Source of the DNA: Aquimarina mycalae
GTDB taxonomy: Bacteria; Bacteroidota; Bacteroidia; Flavobacteriales; Flavobacteriaceae
Assembly (NCBI RefSeq): GCF_029906345.1
Contig: NZ_JARYGY010000003.1
Span: 62,001-126,000 of the forward strand
Direction of reading: 5' to 3'
DNA length: 64,000 bases
This document shows positions 27,580-34,613 of the stretch, in pieces; within the stretch, counting starts at the first letter, position 1; every line of letters begins with the position of its first letter. A program made the position numbers and the translations under genes. The notes under the pieces are model-generated. The model did no database searches, was not told the origin of the DNA, and saw nothing but the letters and a program-made list of their open reading frames with translations.

Positions 27580-29121
27580 TCAGGCTTGCGGATTGATTTG
27601 CTCTGGTTTTTTAAATAACTCCAAATATGATTTTCCTATATTAGAAACTATATCACTTGCTAACAAACCCTGATAACCAGTTTCTTGTATAGCAATATCA
27701 CCAGAACTACCATGAAGATATACTCCAAAAATAGTTGCATATAACGGTTCGTATCCTTGAGAAATCAATCCTGTAATTATTCCAGTCAGAACATCTCCAC
27801 TTCCTGCAGTAGCCATTCCAGGGTTTCCAGATGTATTTACATATATATTATCTTGATATATTACTAAGGTATTAGCTCCTTTAATAACAACGATCGAATC
27901 ATATTTCTTAGAAAATTCTTTAGTTTTTTTAATCTTATCAAAATCATCATTCCATGATCCCAACAACCTTTTTAATTCACCTGGATGTGGTGTTAATACC
28001 GTTTGTTTAGGTAAATACTCTAAGAATGTAGCTTCTTTAGATAAAATATTAATCCCATCTGCATCAATAACCAGTTTTGCTTTATTTTGTTTTAAAAACT
28101 CTTCAAAAGCACTTATAGTTTTTTCATGAGTTCCTAATCCTACTCCAATTGCTATAGCGGCAGGGTTTAAATCAAAATCAATTTTAGTAATATAATCATC
28201 CTCCTTGTCCGTAATTACCATAGCCTCAGGAACAGAAGTCTGCAGAATATCATATCCACATTCTGGAATGTATGTAGTGGCCAAACCTGCTCCTATTCGT
28301 AAAGCAGATTTAGTAGTTAACACTATACTACCTATTTTACCATAGCTTCCACCAATCAAAAGACAATGTCCGTAATCTCCTTTATGCGCAAACTTATGTC
28401 TTGGTCTATATAGAGAAAGTGCTTCATTTTTTCCTATCAAATCTGCAAATCCTGGAGTTTGAGCGATAAATCCTCTATCCAAACCAATGTCAATCACCTC
28501 TAAATCCTGAGAATACTGTCCAGTTTCAGGTAAGAAAAATACTAATTTTGGTAATTGAAATGCAACCGTTGTAGATGCATAAATTACTCCTTCTGGGTTA
28601 TCAGGAGCTTTATCTGCGTATAAACCAGAAGGAATATCAATAGATAGTGTAAAACATCTAGAGGCATTAATTTTTTTAATTAATGCTACAACCCATGGTA
28701 ATAATGGTCTATTCAATCCAATTCCAAAAATGGCATCAATAACCATATCCTCTTGTTTAATAGCAATATCAGAAAGATCATCTTCGGATTTTAATTGTAT
28801 AGGCCATTCTGATAGAATAGCTTTTAATCGGTCATAATTTTCTAAAAAGTCTTTTGATCGGTTATCACTAAAGTTAACGATATAGGTTTTTACATGATAC
28901 CCATGTTCAACTAACAATCTAGAAATCACCAATCCATCACCCCCATTATTTCCTAAACCACAAAATACATGAATTGGAATTGGAGCTCCTTGTAGTCTTT
29001 GATGTAATACATTGAATATTTGGGTGGCAGCACGCTCCATTAATTCTAAAGAAGTTATCTTTTGAGATTCTATAGTAACCTCGTCTGCTTTTCGCATTTG
29101 TTCTGCAGAGAATATTTTCAC
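27580..29121 (-). CDS. nnr: Bifunctional NAD(P)H-hydrate repair enzyme
   Basis: 513 residues combining NAD(P)HX epimerase (about 1-215, YjeF-N, with FCGLGNNGGDGLVISRLL) and ADP/ATP-dependent NAD(P)HX dehydratase (about 225-505, with the KGDYGHCLLIGGSYGKIGS entry, HPGELKRLLG and the signature NPGMATAGSGDVLTGII). It repairs hydrated nicotinamide cofactors in the cytoplasm. The fused form is usual in bacteria. It appears monocistronic and diverges from the thr operon. Confidence 0.95.
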   Translation of the reverse strand: MKIFSAEQMRKADEVTIESQKITSLELMERAATQIFNVLHQRLQGAPIPIHVFCGLGNNGGDGLVISRLLVEHGYHVKTYIVNFSDNRSKDFLENYDRLKAILSEWPIQLKSEDDLSDIAIKQEDMVIDAIFGIGLNRPLLPWVVALIKKINASRCFTLSIDIPSGLYADKAPDNPEGVIYASTTVAFQLPKLVFFLPETGQYSQDLEVIDIGLDRGFIAQTPGFADLIGKNEALSLYRPRHKFAHKGDYGHCLLIGGSYGKIGSIVLTTKSALRIGAGLATTYIPECGYDILQTSVPEAMVITDKEDDYITKIDFDLNPAAIAIGVGLGTHEKTISAFEEFLKQNKAKLVIDADGINILSKEATFLEYLPKQTVLTPHPGELKRLLGSWNDDFDKIKKTKEFSKKYDSIVVIKGANTLVIYQDNIYVNTSGNPGMATAGSGDVLTGIITGLISQGYEPLYATIFGVYLHGSSGDIAIQETGYQGLLASDIVSNIGKSYLELFKKPEQINPQA

Positions 29122-29290
29122 AAGTCTAAATTTTATTAATAATTAAATAATAGATGTTCTATAAAACTGAGCATATATATTCGTTTTAAAATCTATTACG
29201 ATTAGTTTCATTTATTTTTAGGAATATTTTAACGAATCAATACATAAATTGTAGGATCAACAAAAGTTTATGATTACCTTCGTTTTTTAT

Positions 29291-29320
29291 TTTGTTCAAA
29301 TGTAAAAAATTATACATTTG
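29291..29320 (+). promoter_or_regulatory. Thr operon promoter (TTTG-N18-TACATTTG)
   Basis: A -33 TTTG at 29291-29294 and a -7 TACATTTG at 29313-29320 match the Bacteroidota consensus, with an 18-base spacer (usual 19-21). Transcription would start near 29326, about 17 bases before the leader ATG. Confidence 0.65.
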
Positions 29321-29323
29321 AAC
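29294..29323. promoter_or_regulatory. Palindrome overlapping the thr promoter
   Basis: GTTCAAATGTA and TACATTTGAAC are perfect 11-bp inverted arms around AAAAATTA. The right arm contains the -7 box and the left begins at the last base of the -33 box, so a dimeric regulator bound here would cover the promoter. Confidence 0.5.
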
Positions 29324-29342
29324 CTTAATATAAAGCAAACTA

Positions 29343-29456
29343 ATGTTTAGTACGGTTTCAATCTCGGTTTTACTTTTCGCGTTGGGAACAATTGTGGCTT
29401 CTGCTTATACTTCTATTACACGTACTACAATTACTATTATTACCCTTAGGGGTTAA
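29343..29456 (+). CDS. Thr/Ile-rich leader peptide of the threonine operon
   Basis: A 37-codon frame between the promoter and thrA. The first 22 residues are hydrophobic; codons 23-37 read TSITRTTITIITLRG, with six Thr and four Ile codons in 12 positions (codons 23-34). This is the arrangement of attenuation leaders such as enterobacterial thrL, where ribosome stalling at Thr and Ile codons reports charged-tRNA supply. Regulation by translation of the leader is inferred from composition and position. An imperfect hairpin overlaps its end and a second lies between it and thrA. Confidence 0.8.
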   Translation: MFSTVSISVLLFALGTIVASAYTSITRTTITIITLRG

Positions 29457-29512
29457 TCATTTATATATCATAGAAATCGAGTAGGTAGTTTGTTTTAAGT
29501 AAAGAAACTATC
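29439..29512 (+). promoter_or_regulatory. RNA hairpins between leader peptide and thrA
   Basis: First stem: ATTACCC (29439-29445) with GGGTTAAT (29450-29457), one bulge, at the leader stop. Second stem: GGTAGTTT (29484-29491) with AAACTATC (29505-29512), 8 bp including one G-U pair, 13-base loop. Neither is followed by a clear T-run, so a classical intrinsic attenuator is not proved. Confidence 0.4.
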
Positions 29513-29551
29513 GAAAAGCTTTATCAATTACATCAATTTAAAAATTACAAT

Positions 29552-31996
29552 ATGAACGTTCTAAAATTTGGAGGTTCCTCTGTCGCAAATGCAGCGACTA
29601 TAGAAAAAGTTATAGATATTATCAAAGAGCAATCTAATACTAAACCGCTATACGTAGTGGTATCTGCTCTTGGTGGAGTTACTGATCTTTTAATTCAAGC
29701 AGGAAAAGAAGCTTCTTCTAATAATGATATTTATAAAAACACCCTTGCTACTATTGAAACAAGACACCTTGAAGCTATCAAAGAATTAATACCTATTGTT
29801 TCTCAAAGTGCCATAATCAGTAAAGTAAAATCTGAACTAAATAAGCTAGAATCTCTATGTGAAGGAGTATTTTTATTAAGTGAATTATCTCCTAAAACAG
29901 AATCTGTTATTGCTAGTTTTGGTGAGATGTTATCTTCTTTTATAATTTCTGAAGCAGCTAAGATAAAAGGGCTGGACATTGTACTGAAAGATGCTAGAGA
30001 CTATATCATTACTATTGATGGAACTAAAGTTACTATAGATTATGAAGAAACTAATTTTAGAATACAAAGATATGCTCAGGACAATAAACATCAGATTAGC
30101 CTTTTTCCTGGTTTTGTAGCTAAAACATCTGAAGGAGAACCAACTACGTTGGGAAGAGGTGGTTCAGATTTTACAGCTGCCATATTAGCTGCTGCAGTAA
30201 CAGCAGATGCATTGCAAATATGGACTGATGTTAGTGGTATGTATACTGCTAACCCTAAACTAGTAAAACAGGCAAAACCTATATCTCATATATCGTATCA
30301 GGAAGCGATGGAATTATCTCACTTTGGTGCAAAAGTTATTTATCCACCTACTATTCATCCAGTTTTGGATAAGGATATTCCAATTGTCATTAAGAATACA
30401 TTCCAACCAGAAGAAGTAGGGACTTTGATTACCAGAGAGGTTGGTAATAGACAAAAACCTGTAACAGGAATTAGTCATATTGATAATATTTCTGTGATAT
30501 CACTAGAAGGAAGTGGAATGGTAGGTATACCAGGTTTTTCTAAACGATTATTCGAGGCTTTATTTCTGGAAAATATAAATGTAATCCTTATCACGCAAGC
30601 TTCTTCTGAGCATTCGATATGCTTAGCTGTTGAGGAAACGGATGCAGAAAGAGCTAAAATTATTTTAGATACTACTTTCGAATTTGAGATAACCAAACAT
30701 AAGGTAGATCCCGTAAAAATTGAGAACAATGCAGCTATAGTAGCATTAGTAGGTGATAATATGTATCATCATCAAGGGTTGAGTGGTAAAATGTTTAGTA
30801 CACTTGGTAAAAACAATGTAAACATTAGAGCAATTGCCCAAGGAGCTTCTGAAAGAAATATTTCTGTAGTTATAGAGAAAAAGGATATTAAAAAGGCCTT
30901 AAATATTTTACACGAACGCTTTTTTGAAGTAAAAACAAAACAACTCAATCTATTTGTTACTGGTGTAGGTAATGTTGGTAGTAAGTTACTTGATCAGTTA
31001 GCCCAACAAAAAACATATCTAAAAGAGAAATTACGTCTTAAGATCAGAGTTGTTGGAATCTCTAATTCCAGAACAATGGTTTTTGATGAAGGAGGAATAA
31101 AACTTGATTCATGGAAAGAAAAACTTTCGCAAGGAGAGAAAGCAGATTCTGAAGAATTCTTCAAAACTGCTCAAAAAATGAATATCCGTAACTCTATTTT
31201 TGTAGACAATACTGCTAATCCAGATATAGCGAAAGTCTATAAACATTATCTAGCAGAAAGTATGGCTGTAGTTACATGTAATAAAATTGCTTGTGCTGAT
31301 GAATATGCCAATTATGAAAACCTGCAAGAACTATCTAGAAAGTTTAATGCCTCTTTTTTATATGAAACTAACGTTGGTGCTGGATTGCCAATCATTGATA
31401 CTTTAAACAATTTAATTGCCTCTGGAGATCACGTTCGTAAAATTCAAGCAGTATTATCGGGTAGTCTTAATTTTGTTTTCAATAACTATAAACAAGGAGT
31501 TAACTTTTATGATGTTGTGAAACAGGCACAAGAAGAAGGATATACTGAACCAGACCCAAAAATTGATCTTAGTGGTGTAGATGTGGCTCGTAAAATTTTG
31601 ATTTTAGCAAGAGAAAGTGGAAATGTCATTGAATTAAACGATATCGAAAAAGAAGCATTTTTACCACAAGAGAGTTTAGATACTACTAGTGTTGATAGTT
31701 TCTTTGATTCTTTAAAAGCTAATGAATCTCATTTTAAACAAATTCTAAATGAAGCTGATAAAAAAGAATGTCGCTTAAAGTATGTTGCTCAATATGAAGA
31801 AGGAAAAGCTAAAGTTGGATTACAACATATTCCTGCTGATCATCCTTTTTATAATTTAGAAGGGAGTGATAATATTGTTCTTTTTTATACGGATCGATAT
31901 CCTGAAAATCCGCTAATAGTTAAAGGTGCAGGTGCTGGAGCAGAAGTTACTGCTTCGGGAATATTTGCTGATATTATAAGAATTGGTAAAAAGTAA
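29552..31996 (+). CDS. thrA: Bifunctional aspartokinase / homoserine dehydrogenase
   Basis: 814 residues covering the first and third steps from aspartate to threonine. The kinase (1-285) opens MNVLKFGGSSVANA and has TLGRGGSDFTAA. Two ACT domains (about 310-455, EGSGMVGIPGFSKR and VALVGDNMYHHQGLSGK) should bind the feedback inhibitor. The dehydrogenase (about 465-814) has the NAD(P) loop VTGVGNVGSKL, TCNKIACA and the signature GSLNFVFNNY with EPDPKIDLSGVDVARK. Start fits the family, 95 bases after the leader peptide. It is followed closely by thrB. Confidence 0.96.
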   Translation: MNVLKFGGSSVANAATIEKVIDIIKEQSNTKPLYVVVSALGGVTDLLIQAGKEASSNNDIYKNTLATIETRHLEAIKELIPIVSQSAIISKVKSELNKLESLCEGVFLLSELSPKTESVIASFGEMLSSFIISEAAKIKGLDIVLKDARDYIITIDGTKVTIDYEETNFRIQRYAQDNKHQISLFPGFVAKTSEGEPTTLGRGGSDFTAAILAAAVTADALQIWTDVSGMYTANPKLVKQAKPISHISYQEAMELSHFGAKVIYPPTIHPVLDKDIPIVIKNTFQPEEVGTLITREVGNRQKPVTGISHIDNISVISLEGSGMVGIPGFSKRLFEALFLENINVILITQASSEHSICLAVEETDAERAKIILDTTFEFEITKHKVDPVKIENNAAIVALVGDNMYHHQGLSGKMFSTLGKNNVNIRAIAQGASERNISVVIEKKDIKKALNILHERFFEVKTKQLNLFVTGVGNVGSKLLDQLAQQKTYLKEKLRLKIRVVGISNSRTMVFDEGGIKLDSWKEKLSQGEKADSEEFFKTAQKMNIRNSIFVDNTANPDIAKVYKHYLAESMAVVTCNKIACADEYANYENLQELSRKFNASFLYETNVGAGLPIIDTLNNLIASGDHVRKIQAVLSGSLNFVFNNYKQGVNFYDVVKQAQEEGYTEPDPKIDLSGVDVARKILILARESGNVIELNDIEKEAFLPQESLDTTSVDSFFDSLKANESHFKQILNEADKKECRLKYVAQYEEGKAKVGLQHIPADHPFYNLEGSDNIVLFYTDRYPENPLIVKGAGAGAEVTASGIFADIIRIGKK

Positions 31997-32010: not shown

Positions 32011-32934
32011 ATGAAAAGTATAAAAATCTTTGCTCCCGCAACCGTTGCCAATCTTTCTTGTGGATTTGATGTATTAGGATGTTGCCTTGATACTGTTGGA
32101 GATGAAATGATTATTACAATAACTTCTGTACCTGGCGTAAGAATCACTAAAATAGAAGGGGCAGATTTACCATTAGATACTAAAACGAATGTTGCTGGTG
32201 TGGCTGTAGAGGCCCTATTGAAAAATTATGAATCTGAGGTAGGTGTTGATATTGAAATTTACAAAAAAATAAAAGCTGGCAGTGGTATAGGTAGCAGTGC
32301 CGCCAGTAGTGCTGGTGCTGTATGGGCTGTAAATCATCTTTTGGATAAACCTTTTACAGCACAAAAATTGGTAGAGTTTGCTATGGAAGGAGAAAAACTA
32401 GCAAGTGGTAATGCACATGCAGATAATGTAGCTCCTGCTCTTCTTGGTGGATTTACATTGGTAAGAAGTTATGAACCATTGGATGTTATAAAGTTACACA
32501 CTCCAAAGGATCTTGTAATGACTGTTATACATCCGCAGATTGAAGTAAAAACTTCGGATGCCAGGTCTGTTATCAAACAAAATGTTAGTCTTAAAAAAGC
32601 AATTCATCAATGGGGAAATCTTGGAGGTTTAGTATCTGGACTCTTTACAGAAGATTATGATCTTATTGGTCGTAGTCTAGAAGACGTAATTATAGAACCT
32701 ATGCGATCTATTTTGATTCCTGAGTTTAATACTGTAAAAGATGCTGCTCTTGATCAAGGCGCACTTGGGTGTGGTATTTCTGGTTCTGGTCCTTCAATTT
32801 TTGCATTAAGCAAAGGACTGGAAACCGCAAAAAAAGTAGCAGATGCGATAAGAGCCATATATAATAAAACTGGTCTTGACTTTGATATTCATATTTCAGA
32901 AATCAATAGTCAAGGAGTAAAAATAATTAATTGA
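32011..32934 (+). CDS. thrB: Homoserine kinase
   Basis: 307-residue GHMP kinase phosphorylating homoserine for ThrC. The opening IFAPATVANLSCGFDVLG and the ATP motif AGSGIGSSAASSAGAVW are diagnostic, and the C-terminal GALGCGISGSGPSIFAL is GHMP motif 3. It begins 14 bases after thrA and ends 1 base before the RidA-like gene, so it belongs to the same transcript. Confidence 0.96.
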   Translation: MKSIKIFAPATVANLSCGFDVLGCCLDTVGDEMIITITSVPGVRITKIEGADLPLDTKTNVAGVAVEALLKNYESEVGVDIEIYKKIKAGSGIGSSAASSAGAVWAVNHLLDKPFTAQKLVEFAMEGEKLASGNAHADNVAPALLGGFTLVRSYEPLDVIKLHTPKDLVMTVIHPQIEVKTSDARSVIKQNVSLKKAIHQWGNLGGLVSGLFTEDYDLIGRSLEDVIIEPMRSILIPEFNTVKDAALDQGALGCGISGSGPSIFALSKGLETAKKVADAIRAIYNKTGLDFDIHISEINSQGVKIIN

Positions 32935-32935
32935 T

Positions 32936-33301
32936 ATGCAAGAAATTAAAAAAATAGCTACTGGTTCTCCATGGGAAGATATTGTAGGATACTCAAGAGC
33001 CATAAAAATTGGTAATACCATTGAAGTATCAGGAACAACAGCTCCAGGAATAAATGAGTATGATCAAACTGTTGCTATTATTGAATCTGTAAAAAAAGCC
33101 CTTAGTGAATTTAATGCAGATTTAAGTCATGTGATACGTACAAGAATTTATTGTACCGATATTTCAAAATGGGAAGACATTGGAAAAGCTCATGGACAAT
33201 ATTTTGGCGCTACCAAACCAGTAACAACAATGGTTGAAGTATCAAAATTAATAAATCAGGATATCTTAGTGGAAATAGAATTTTCTGCAATAGTTCCGTA
33301 A
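32936..33301 (+). CDS. RidA/YjgF-family protein within the thr operon
   Basis: 121 residues, trimeric enamine/imine deaminase family. RidA proteins hydrolyse reactive 2-aminoacrylate and related imines produced by PLP enzymes such as threonine dehydratase. Motifs: IGNTIEVSGTTAPG, NADLSHVIRTRIYCTDISKW, TTMVEVSKLINQDILVEIEF. At the place of the active-site Arg of archetypal RidA (VEVARLP) this protein has Lys (VEVSKLI), pointing to another Rid subfamily. Being between thrB and thrC (spacing 1 and 22 bases), it likely works during threonine synthesis or catabolism. Confidence 0.88.
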   Translation: MQEIKKIATGSPWEDIVGYSRAIKIGNTIEVSGTTAPGINEYDQTVAIIESVKKALSEFNADLSHVIRTRIYCTDISKWEDIGKAHGQYFGATKPVTTMVEVSKLINQDILVEIEFSAIVP

Positions 33302-33323: not shown

Positions 33324-34613
33324 ATGCAATATTATAGCTTACATAATAATTCACCTAAAGTCTCTTTTTCTGAAGCTGTTGTTAAGGGATTAGCACCAGA
33401 TAGAGGTTTATATTTTCCAGAGGGCATAACTCCCCTACCTCAAACTTTTTTCGATAATATTGAAACCTTAGACAATATAGAAATTGGTTTTCAAGCAATT
33501 AAACAATTTGTAGGTGATGAAATTCCTGAGACTGAATTACGCGAAATTCTTACCGATGTATTAAGTTTTGACTTTCCTGTAGTTGATATTAAAGAAAACA
33601 TTGGAACGTTAGAGCTTTTTCATGGTCCAACAATGGCCTTTAAAGATGTTGGTGCTCGATTTATGGCCAGGTGCCTAGGATATTTTAATAAGAATAATAA
33701 AAATAAGGTTACGGTGCTTGTAGCTACTTCTGGAGATACAGGAGGCGCGGTAGCGCAAGGTTTCTTGGGTGTTAAAGGTGTAGATGTTGTGATTTTATAT
33801 CCTTCCGGAAAAGTAAGTGATATACAAGAAAGACAGCTTACAACTTTAGGTCAAAACATAACTGCATTAGAAGTAGATGGAGTGTTCGACGACTGTCAGG
33901 ATATGGTTAAAAAAGCATTTCTTGACGAAACGATAACGAATCACAAACAACTAACGTCTGCTAATTCTATCAATATTGCCAGATGGTTACCACAATTATT
34001 CTATTTCATTTTTGCTTACAAACAAGTAAAAAGTAAAGGTAAGGAAGTCGTTTTTTCTGTACCTAGTGGTAACTTCGGAAATATTTGCGCTGGAATTGTA
34101 GCTCAAAAACTTGGTCTTCCAGTAAAACATTTTATAGCAGCAACAAATATTAATGATACAGTAGTGAGATACTTAAAAACGTCAGAGTATGATCCAAAAC
34201 CCTCCAAAGCTACTATATCTAATGCCATGGATGTTGGTAATCCAAGTAATTTTATTCGTATTCAAAAGTTGTTTGATAATGATTTTGACAAACTAAAAGA
34301 TAATTTTTCTGCTTATAGTTTCAATGATACGGACACAAGAGATGCAATGAAGGAAGTATATACTCAGACTAAATATGTTGCAGATCCTCATGGTGCTGTG
34401 GGATATCTTGGTCTTAAAAATTATGATTTACAAGAAAATGAGTACGGTATATTTCTAGAGACTGCACATCCAGTTAAATTCTTAGATATTGTTGAACAAA
34501 CTATAGATATAAAAGTGACTATTCCAACGCAGATCCAAAAAGTAATGGATAAAGAAAAAGTACGTTATAAAATTAAGGATTATAAAGAATTAAAGGAGTT
34601 CTTACTACAATAG
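33324..34613 (+). CDS. thrC: Threonine synthase
   Basis: 429-residue PLP enzyme converting O-phosphohomoserine to threonine. The PLP lysine is in GPTMAFKDVGARFMAR, and the phosphate-binding SGDTGGAVAQGF and SVPSGNFGNICAG motifs are present. The length fits the class I bacterial family. The last 8 codons form the left arm of a 16-bp terminator stem, so the operon end is encoded inside the gene. Confidence 0.96.
   Translation: MQYYSLHNNSPKVSFSEAVVKGLAPDRGLYFPEGITPLPQTFFDNIETLDNIEIGFQAIKQFVGDEIPETELREILTDVLSFDFPVVDIKENIGTLELFHGPTMAFKDVGARFMARCLGYFNKNNKNKVTVLVATSGDTGGAVAQGFLGVKGVDVVILYPSGKVSDIQERQLTTLGQNITALEVDGVFDDCQDMVKKAFLDETITNHKQLTSANSINIARWLPQLFYFIFAYKQVKSKGKEVVFSVPSGNFGNICAGIVAQKLGLPVKHFIAATNINDTVVRYLKTSEYDPKPSKATISNAMDVGNPSNFIRIQKLFDNDFDKLKDNFSAYSFNDTDTRDAMKEVYTQTKYVADPHGAVGYLGLKNYDLQENEYGIFLETAHPVKFLDIVEQTIDIKVTIPTQIQKVMDKEKVRYKIKDYKELKEFLLQ

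Follow-up and report, generated by a model that had tools for sequence, protein, structure and literature searches.

A candidate threonine/isoleucine leader before thrABC in Aquimarina mycalae, with a hairpin at its stop codon and an ATAT box behind it

Known attenuators and the thr locus of A. mycalae

Attenuation is taught as a choice between a terminator and an antiterminator. In enterobacteria, thrL lies directly 5' of thrA, thrB, and thrC of the threonine operon; this short leader gene contains a stretch of Thr and Ile codons. Leaders of the trp type have a 1:2 pause hairpin, which includes the regulatory codons, lies at the stop codon, and serves a 3:4 terminator. A comparative study of attenuation published in 2010 by Lopatovskaya et al. 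may extend to Bacteroidota; the available part of PMC4833913 discusses leader genes and cites that study. Strong clues for leader-peptide attenuation 5' of amino-acid operons are given for Flavobacterium psychrophilum in the portion of PMC9723704 at hand, which also states the TAnnTTTG form of the -7 box and the conservation within the family of the 5' elements of pheA and hisG; the words thrA and threonine are absent from its main text. Leader-like sORFs of Bacteroides thetaiotaomicron are treated in the accessible part of PMC7366714, and the partial text of PMC10219788 contains neither threonine nor Bacteroid-. No paper on a thrA leader in Bacteroidota was among the matches listed, which comprised titles and abstract openings from a collection that mostly does not cover subscription journals. 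Judged by the available part of PMC9723704, leader attenuation in flavobacteria is already known in general terms.

The window is a stretch of 64,000 nucleotides of the A. mycalae genome (G000:C22:62001-126000), in which the thr operon and the elements before it are arranged as follows.

29291..29294, + strand: -33 element TTTG of a Bacteroidota-type promoter, from the sequence; assigned by what we take to be the -33 consensus
29313..29320, + strand: -7 element TACATTTG (TAnnTTTG), from the sequence; 18-nt spacer after TTTG
29343..29456, + strand: leader ORF, ATG to TAA, 37 codons, MFSTVSISVLLFALGTIVASAYTSITRTTITIITLRG; Thr/Ile run in its second half
29349..29354, + strand: AGTACG, 5' side of a possible helix with 29421-29426 (Aquimarina only; RNAalifold, suggestive)
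29409..29444, + strand: regulatory codons TSITRTTITIIT, from the sequence
29421..29426, + strand: CGTACT, 3' side of the possible helix with 29349-29354 (RNAalifold)
29442..29453, + strand: hairpin 1, ACCC-TTAG-GGGT; the last Thr codon begins its 5' arm and the stop codon TAA (29454-29456) comes next
29462..29469, + strand: ATAT box TATATATC behind hairpin 1, from the sequence
29484..29512, + strand: hairpin 2, an 8-bp stem GGTAGTTT/AAACTATC with an inner 3 bp, no U-run after it
29552..31996, + strand: thrA, bifunctional aspartate kinase/homoserine dehydrogenase I (NF006959, 1063 bits against a cut-off of 726)
32011..32934, + strand: thrB, homoserine kinase (TIGR00191, above cut-off)
32936..33301, + strand: Rid-family-like protein between thrB and thrC (TIGR00004, 53 bits, below the cut-off of 106)
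33324..34613, + strand: thrC, threonine synthase (TIGR00260, above cut-off)

A sequence-only reading of this DNA had described a 37-codon ORF between a good promoter and thrA, which is what we find, the promoter being of the Bacteroidota type (TTTG, 18 nt, TACATTTG); a sigma-70 scan of 28800-29800 did not list it. The leader ORF starts 22 nt 3' of the promoter's end, and its stop codon lies 95 nt 5' of thrA. The dense Thr and Ile codons that the same reading pointed out in the second half of the ORF make it the densest in these residues among the window's 573 ORFs of 20-60 amino acids: it alone has 10 Thr/Ile in 15 residues, the runner-up having 9. In 20 block-shuffled windows, 3 of 15,137 ORFs reached at least 10 in 15, one of them with at least 6 Thr like the leader.

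The likeness to enterobacterial thrL that had been proposed holds for the sensing half, with codons for the product Thr and its descendant Ile in a short leader gene directly 5' of thrA, thrB, and thrC. It does not hold for the switch, where a stop-codon hairpin with an ATAT box stands in place of a U-run terminator and antiterminator pairing is not general, nor does it extend to membership of the thrL families. Six Bacteroidota leaders gave no match to PF08254 (Leader_Thr), TIGR02077, or NF007329 at E values up to 10, while the E. coli thrL control scored 38.4, 34.9, and 48.6 bits against these models. Rfam had no match at gathering score in the window, the Thr leader family included, and four weak, unrelated matches at E up to 10 in 29280-29600. 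Hairpin 1 resembles the 1:2 pause hairpin of trp-type leaders in its regulatory codons and its site at the stop codon, but no regular terminator of the 3:4 type accompanies it.

Conservation of the leader and its codons

In a set of 23 related loci, the leader is present at the same place in all 22 Aquimarina loci found (thrA 80-91% identical); the 23rd (L022) is not Aquimarina and is without a leader. All 23 Aquimarina leaders, the window's included, start with M[FC]S in frame with hairpin 1 and have an ORF length of 105-114 nt, and pN/pS over them is 0.62. For the wider family, 89 of 167 other thrA-bearing genomes were taken, mostly from the top of the list, and one locus (L040), whose thrA start was not located by the script, was left out. 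Combined with the Aquimarina loci, L022, and the window, this gave 112 upstream regions, of which 103 have a frame running into an ACCC-loop-GGGT hairpin. These 103 leaders begin with ATG in 99 cases; a full TAnnTTTG box could be picked before 98 of the 103, and in 94 of the 103 the start lies no more than 32 nt from the picked box.

Beyond the family, the class contributed 29 loci from 149 genomes searched and the order 32 loci from 118. The 0.6-Mb f76 genomes are represented by three, and a partial class match (G265) and the order matches G358 and G372 were left out. The resulting 173 loci were all judged under a single rule, which asked for 4 or more Thr/Ile among the 12 codons preceding the hairpin and for the absence of a stop. 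A Thr/Ile frame runs into the hairpin by this rule at 106 of 124 loci of the window's family (f1) and at 15 loci in seven other families, namely all nine loci of one genus of f2 (f2a) and one locus each in f13 (of 4), f14 (of 1), f32 (of 3), f35 (of 2), f55 (of 1), and f64 (of 1), a total of 121 hairpin loci that are related sequences and not independent events. The sequence-only reading had staked its case on relatives keeping the ORF and its Thr/Ile run before thrA, and they do so across most of the family and at every Aquimarina locus found. At least 7 of the 18 f1 loci where the leader was not called carry the hairpin with too few Thr/Ile codons (L044, L063, L067, L100, L101, L109, and L118). 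Neither the hairpin nor a Thr/Ile ORF was called in f3, f4, f24, f31, f48, f53, f59, f61, f65, f75, and f76 (1-3 loci each).

Codons were counted in the frame set by the ACC of the hairpin. Thr makes up 31.7% and Ile 18.3% of the 12 codons preceding the hairpin at 80 family loci (960 codons; 79 loci from other genera and one from the same genus), and 37.7% and 24.3%, respectively, at the 23 Aquimarina loci (276 codons), values biased upward by the choice, where several hairpins fitted, of the one with the most Thr/Ile codons. At the 80 family loci this stretch has no stop in the leader frame versus 45 and 20 in the other two frames, a count that the same choice biases downward, and Thr is not among the 12 commonest residues of those two frames. 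Codon -1 is Ile at 22 of 23 Aquimarina loci. The leader thus carries regulatory codons for the product of its operon, as expected of a ribosome-mediated attenuator, and that it responds to Thr/Ile is in our view very probable.

Some thrA genes have a different neighborhood. At L025 and L022, the thrA-like gene sits directly 3' of another gene, presumably metX, with no Thr leader before it, and at L114 and L119 thrA lies directly 3' of what we take to be ilvA and has no leader of its own. A Thr/Ile leader was not found in the 450 nt before L025, a second aspartokinase/homoserine dehydrogenase gene, or in the 450 nt before an aspartokinase gene (L026).

Stop-codon hairpin, ATAT box, and terminators

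At 115 of the 121 loci, the first base of the stop codon falls in the range from 9 nt upstream to 3 nt downstream of the hairpin's end. Since ACCC and its pairing were demanded by the search, the hairpin core itself yields no covariation evidence. Covariation is seen outside Aquimarina at the first pair beyond the core, which is paired at 62% of 98 loci versus an expected 45 ± 4.5%, with T-A at 38 and A-T at 18; pairs 2-4 show no pairing above expectation there, and the first pair is unpaired at 22 of 23 Aquimarina loci. The ACCC-GGGT dyad is palindromic, and a chance ORF might lie beside a DNA operator in which the dyad is a protein-binding site. This we find barely credible, as the Thr/Ile run and a stop codon accompany the dyad at 121 loci (with the frame set by the rule), the total length of the dyad varies from 12 to 16 nt, and f16 has a hairpin of opposite polarity at its stop codon (by eye, three loci and a weaker fourth).

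Behind the hairpin, ATAT occurs at +7 to +17 in 100 of the 121 loci, leaving 21 without it in that interval, versus 6 of 110 in a control of equal width 40 nt further on. At the 106 loci where ATAT occurs no more than 30 nt away, its spacing is tighter relative to the hairpin, with an sd of 3.2, than relative to the stop codon, with an sd of 5.9, so that hairpin 1 and the ATAT box look like one unit. Hairpin-stabilised pausing of RNA polymerase needs 10-12 nt from the hairpin to the RNA end, and by analogy the spacing from hairpin to ATAT would about fit this need. RNase cleavage sites, too, often take the form of a stem-loop with an AU-rich single strand behind it, and the tie between box and hairpin would suit a model in which the RNA is cleaved here and a stalled or terminating ribosome controls the stability of thrA mRNA. 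Nothing in the present results favors cleavage itself, and cleavage alone leaves unexplained why other families have a transcription terminator at the same place; we hold this model to be improbable.

Model R1, which describes hairpin and box, is in effect a sequence model, its automatic structure having 2 pairs as loop lengths differ; two loci chosen for alignment A1 (L100 and L109) then fell out. R1 has one match in the A. mycalae genome, at the thr leader, and of 100 family genomes 40 have a single match each, located 39-153 nt before thrA in every case, with 26 of these 40 genomes not used in building it. The 60 genomes with no match are in part a matter of insensitivity, as known leaders were missed (for example G001, seen as L054). 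A motif pattern search of the A. mycalae genome returned one exact match, the thr leader, and three matches with 3 mismatches (L029, L030, and L031). Considered as a second copy of the motif, L029 was the only one of the three to be re-matched by a regular expression and was rejected as being without leader context.

The lack of an obvious T-run terminator, remarked on from the sequence alone, is borne out by a scan of 28800-29800, which finds none in the leader or in the gap to thrA; its sole terminator-like site is at 29022, within the upstream gene. With a canonical terminator defined as at least 6 pairs plus a T-rich tail between the hairpin and thrA, the intrinsic U-run terminator expected before the first gene of an attenuated operon is missing at the window's leader and present at 1 of the 121 hairpin loci (L149). 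A Thr/Ile ORF without a called hairpin occurs at 14 loci. Eight of these, all four loci of f39 and all four of f2b, have a U-run terminator, and the remaining six have none (four in f16; L067 and L074 in f1). By eye, the Thr leader of f16 (L132, L134, L135, and L141) ends in a hairpin ACGGGG-stop-CCCGT with the stop codon in its loop, opposite in polarity to the Flavobacteriaceae hairpin, clear in three loci and weaker in L134.

The f39 and f2b loci, from other Bacteroidota, are canonical attenuators, with a Thr/Ile leader before the same thrA. Unlike the window, they have a long G+C hairpin with a U-run (8 of 8), and the stop-codon region pairs with the 5' arm of this terminator (z <= -1.1 in 7 of 8, mean -2.2). 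When the same test was applied to hairpin loci with hairpin 2 in the place of the terminator, mean z was -0.54 at 89 loci and -0.17 at the 23 Aquimarina loci, with z <= -1.1 at 29% and 17%, respectively. No downstream partner was found for the 3' arm of hairpin 1 (GGGG; mean z -0.52 to +0.52). A mutually exclusive antiterminator is therefore not a general feature of the hairpin loci, though it may exist at individual ones. Within the family f2, the genera f2a (L154-L162) and f2b (L163-L166) differ in having the stop-codon hairpin and the U-run terminator, respectively, which suggests that the switch has been exchanged in evolution.

Hairpin 2, which varies in sequence and has no regular U-run behind it, is well supported by covariation in Aquimarina. 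Its stability relative to shuffles has a mean z of -1.9 in Aquimarina, -2.3 in TLWG, -1.7 in TPFGV, and -0.4 in TPLG. In the 8 nt after it, the average T count is 0.9 in Aquimarina and ranges from 2.6 to 3.8 in the remaining groups; in the 8 nt after hairpin 1 it is 4.0-4.8 in four of five groups and 2.1 in TPLG. These hairpins bring up a textbook attenuator in disguise, in which an intrinsic terminator with a poor U-run, formed by hairpin 2 or by hairpin 1 together with its T-rich tail, would compete with a stall-dependent antiterminator. The covariation of hairpin 2 in Aquimarina, its above-shuffle stability in some groups, the T content behind hairpin 1 in four of five groups, a stop region that outside Aquimarina pairs with hairpin 2's 5' arm a little better than shuffles do (mean z -0.5, 89 loci), and the use of terminators by the his and ilv leaders of A. 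mycalae all speak for such an arrangement. We nevertheless regard it as unlikely in view of the few T behind hairpin 2, the near absence of U-run terminators from the hairpin loci, the low share of these loci with antiterminator pairing compared with the canonical ones, the partnerless 3' arm of hairpin 1, and a hairpin 2 that is weak in TPLG and does not change with ribosome position.

Ribosome position and possible mechanism

Folding of the window's leader with ribosome footprints changes hairpin 1 with the position of the ribosome, its loss under the ribosome following from the input geometry, and barely affects hairpin 2 and the thrA start. Hairpin 1 is also covered when the ribosome stands at the stop codon and is left free by a stall at codon -5 or earlier, so that the direction of the response hinges on timing, which the sequence cannot decide. 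Mean pairing at the thrA start shifts by no more than 0.05 between ribosome states, and no tested leader segment pairs with its own thrA start better than with those of other species (z -1.0 to +2.3, 69 loci). Both results argue against translational attenuation, in which the leader would open or close the thrA start; leader and thrA are apparently on one transcript, as such control would have it, and the 95-nt gap would be long for reinitiation. We consider it very unlikely.

Several further pairings were examined. In the window, the early leader and the spacer behind hairpin 1 pair more when a ribosome is stalled, with 8.0-8.7 expected pairs versus 4.8 in the free RNA; across the family this pairing has z -4.7 overall, weaker inside groups (-2.6, -1.6, -1.1, and +1.0), is only suggestive, and is not claimed. 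Nor do we claim that the Thr run pairs with the early leader (-4.1 overall; -0.1, +0.4, -3.9, and -4.3 inside groups) or with hairpin 2 (-4.8 overall; -1.0, +0.4, +1.3, and -3.3 inside groups). The possible helix 29349-29354/29421-29426, modelled with RNAalifold on 23 Aquimarina leaders, has G-C at its outer pair in 11, C-G in 6, and no pair in 6, and is suggestive only.

Rho-dependent termination in the untranslated spacer between leader and thrA, relieved by a stalled ribosome, could be reflected in the base composition. From the hairpin to thrA, C exceeds G outside Aquimarina (18.2% versus 8.9%) and in Aquimarina as a group (13.2% versus 8.5%). The window itself has no C excess (C 10.5%, G 11.6%), and thrA regions without a hairpin lean to C too (16.4% versus 13.4% G in the last 90 nt, 52 loci), which leaves Rho a distinctly doubtful explanation.

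A Thr/Ile-sensing, ribosome-mediated attenuator of thrABC is well supported at the sequence level by a Thr/Ile ORF next to a promoter and thrA and by the conserved frame into a stop-codon hairpin at 121 loci. We incline somewhat toward reading 29343-29456 as the leader gene of such an attenuator in which hairpin 1 and the ATAT box would act on RNA polymerase. Taken separately, hairpin 1 is probably the switch, and an output at RNA polymerase is plausible at a little under even chances. The attenuator would tie expression of thrA-thrB-rid-thrC to charged tRNA-Thr (and tRNA-Ile). When these are short, a ribosome translating the leader would halt on the Thr/Ile codons, and a halt on the last of them (roughly codons 30-34) would place its footprint over the 5' arm of hairpin 1 and block the hairpin. 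With ample Thr and Ile, the ribosome would depart at the stop codon and hairpin 1 could form, and hairpin and box, as a presumed ribosome-controlled pause or stop, would hold RNA polymerase so that fewer transcripts reach thrA. Starvation would then raise thrABC expression, a direction that for thrA we take from physiology and not from the sequence. The sequence-only reading, in which the stop-codon hairpin and the ATAT box do not figure, rightly left the mechanism open.

For the Flavobacteriaceae and several other families, we tentatively suggest a stop-codon hairpin tethered to an ATAT box that does without a U-run, an antiterminator, and masking of the start site. The position of the ribosome would decide whether hairpin and box stop or release RNA polymerase (or expose a cleavage site), and the switch would have been exchanged within f2. 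Measured against attenuation as it is taught, the sensing half is plain in most of the family and the classical output half is missing, with something else, the hairpin and box, conserved in its place. The two f2 genera, with their two kinds of switch, make such an exchange open to laboratory test.

The hisG and ilvD leaders of the same genome also have regulatory codons (HHHH and Ile/Val, respectively), but by eye these are followed by U-run hairpins. Upstream of hisG, on the minus strand (L152, G000:C22:209000-210500), a His leader MKNILVHHHHSYISAQAW is followed by a U-run hairpin. Upstream of ilvD, also on the minus strand (L153, G000:C1:155900-158500), two tandem, near-duplicate Ile/Val leaders, MRTSNINIINVISNVVIISLR and MRTIKNISINVISIVVIISLR, are each followed by a U-run hairpin, and by eye this region looks like a double attenuator.
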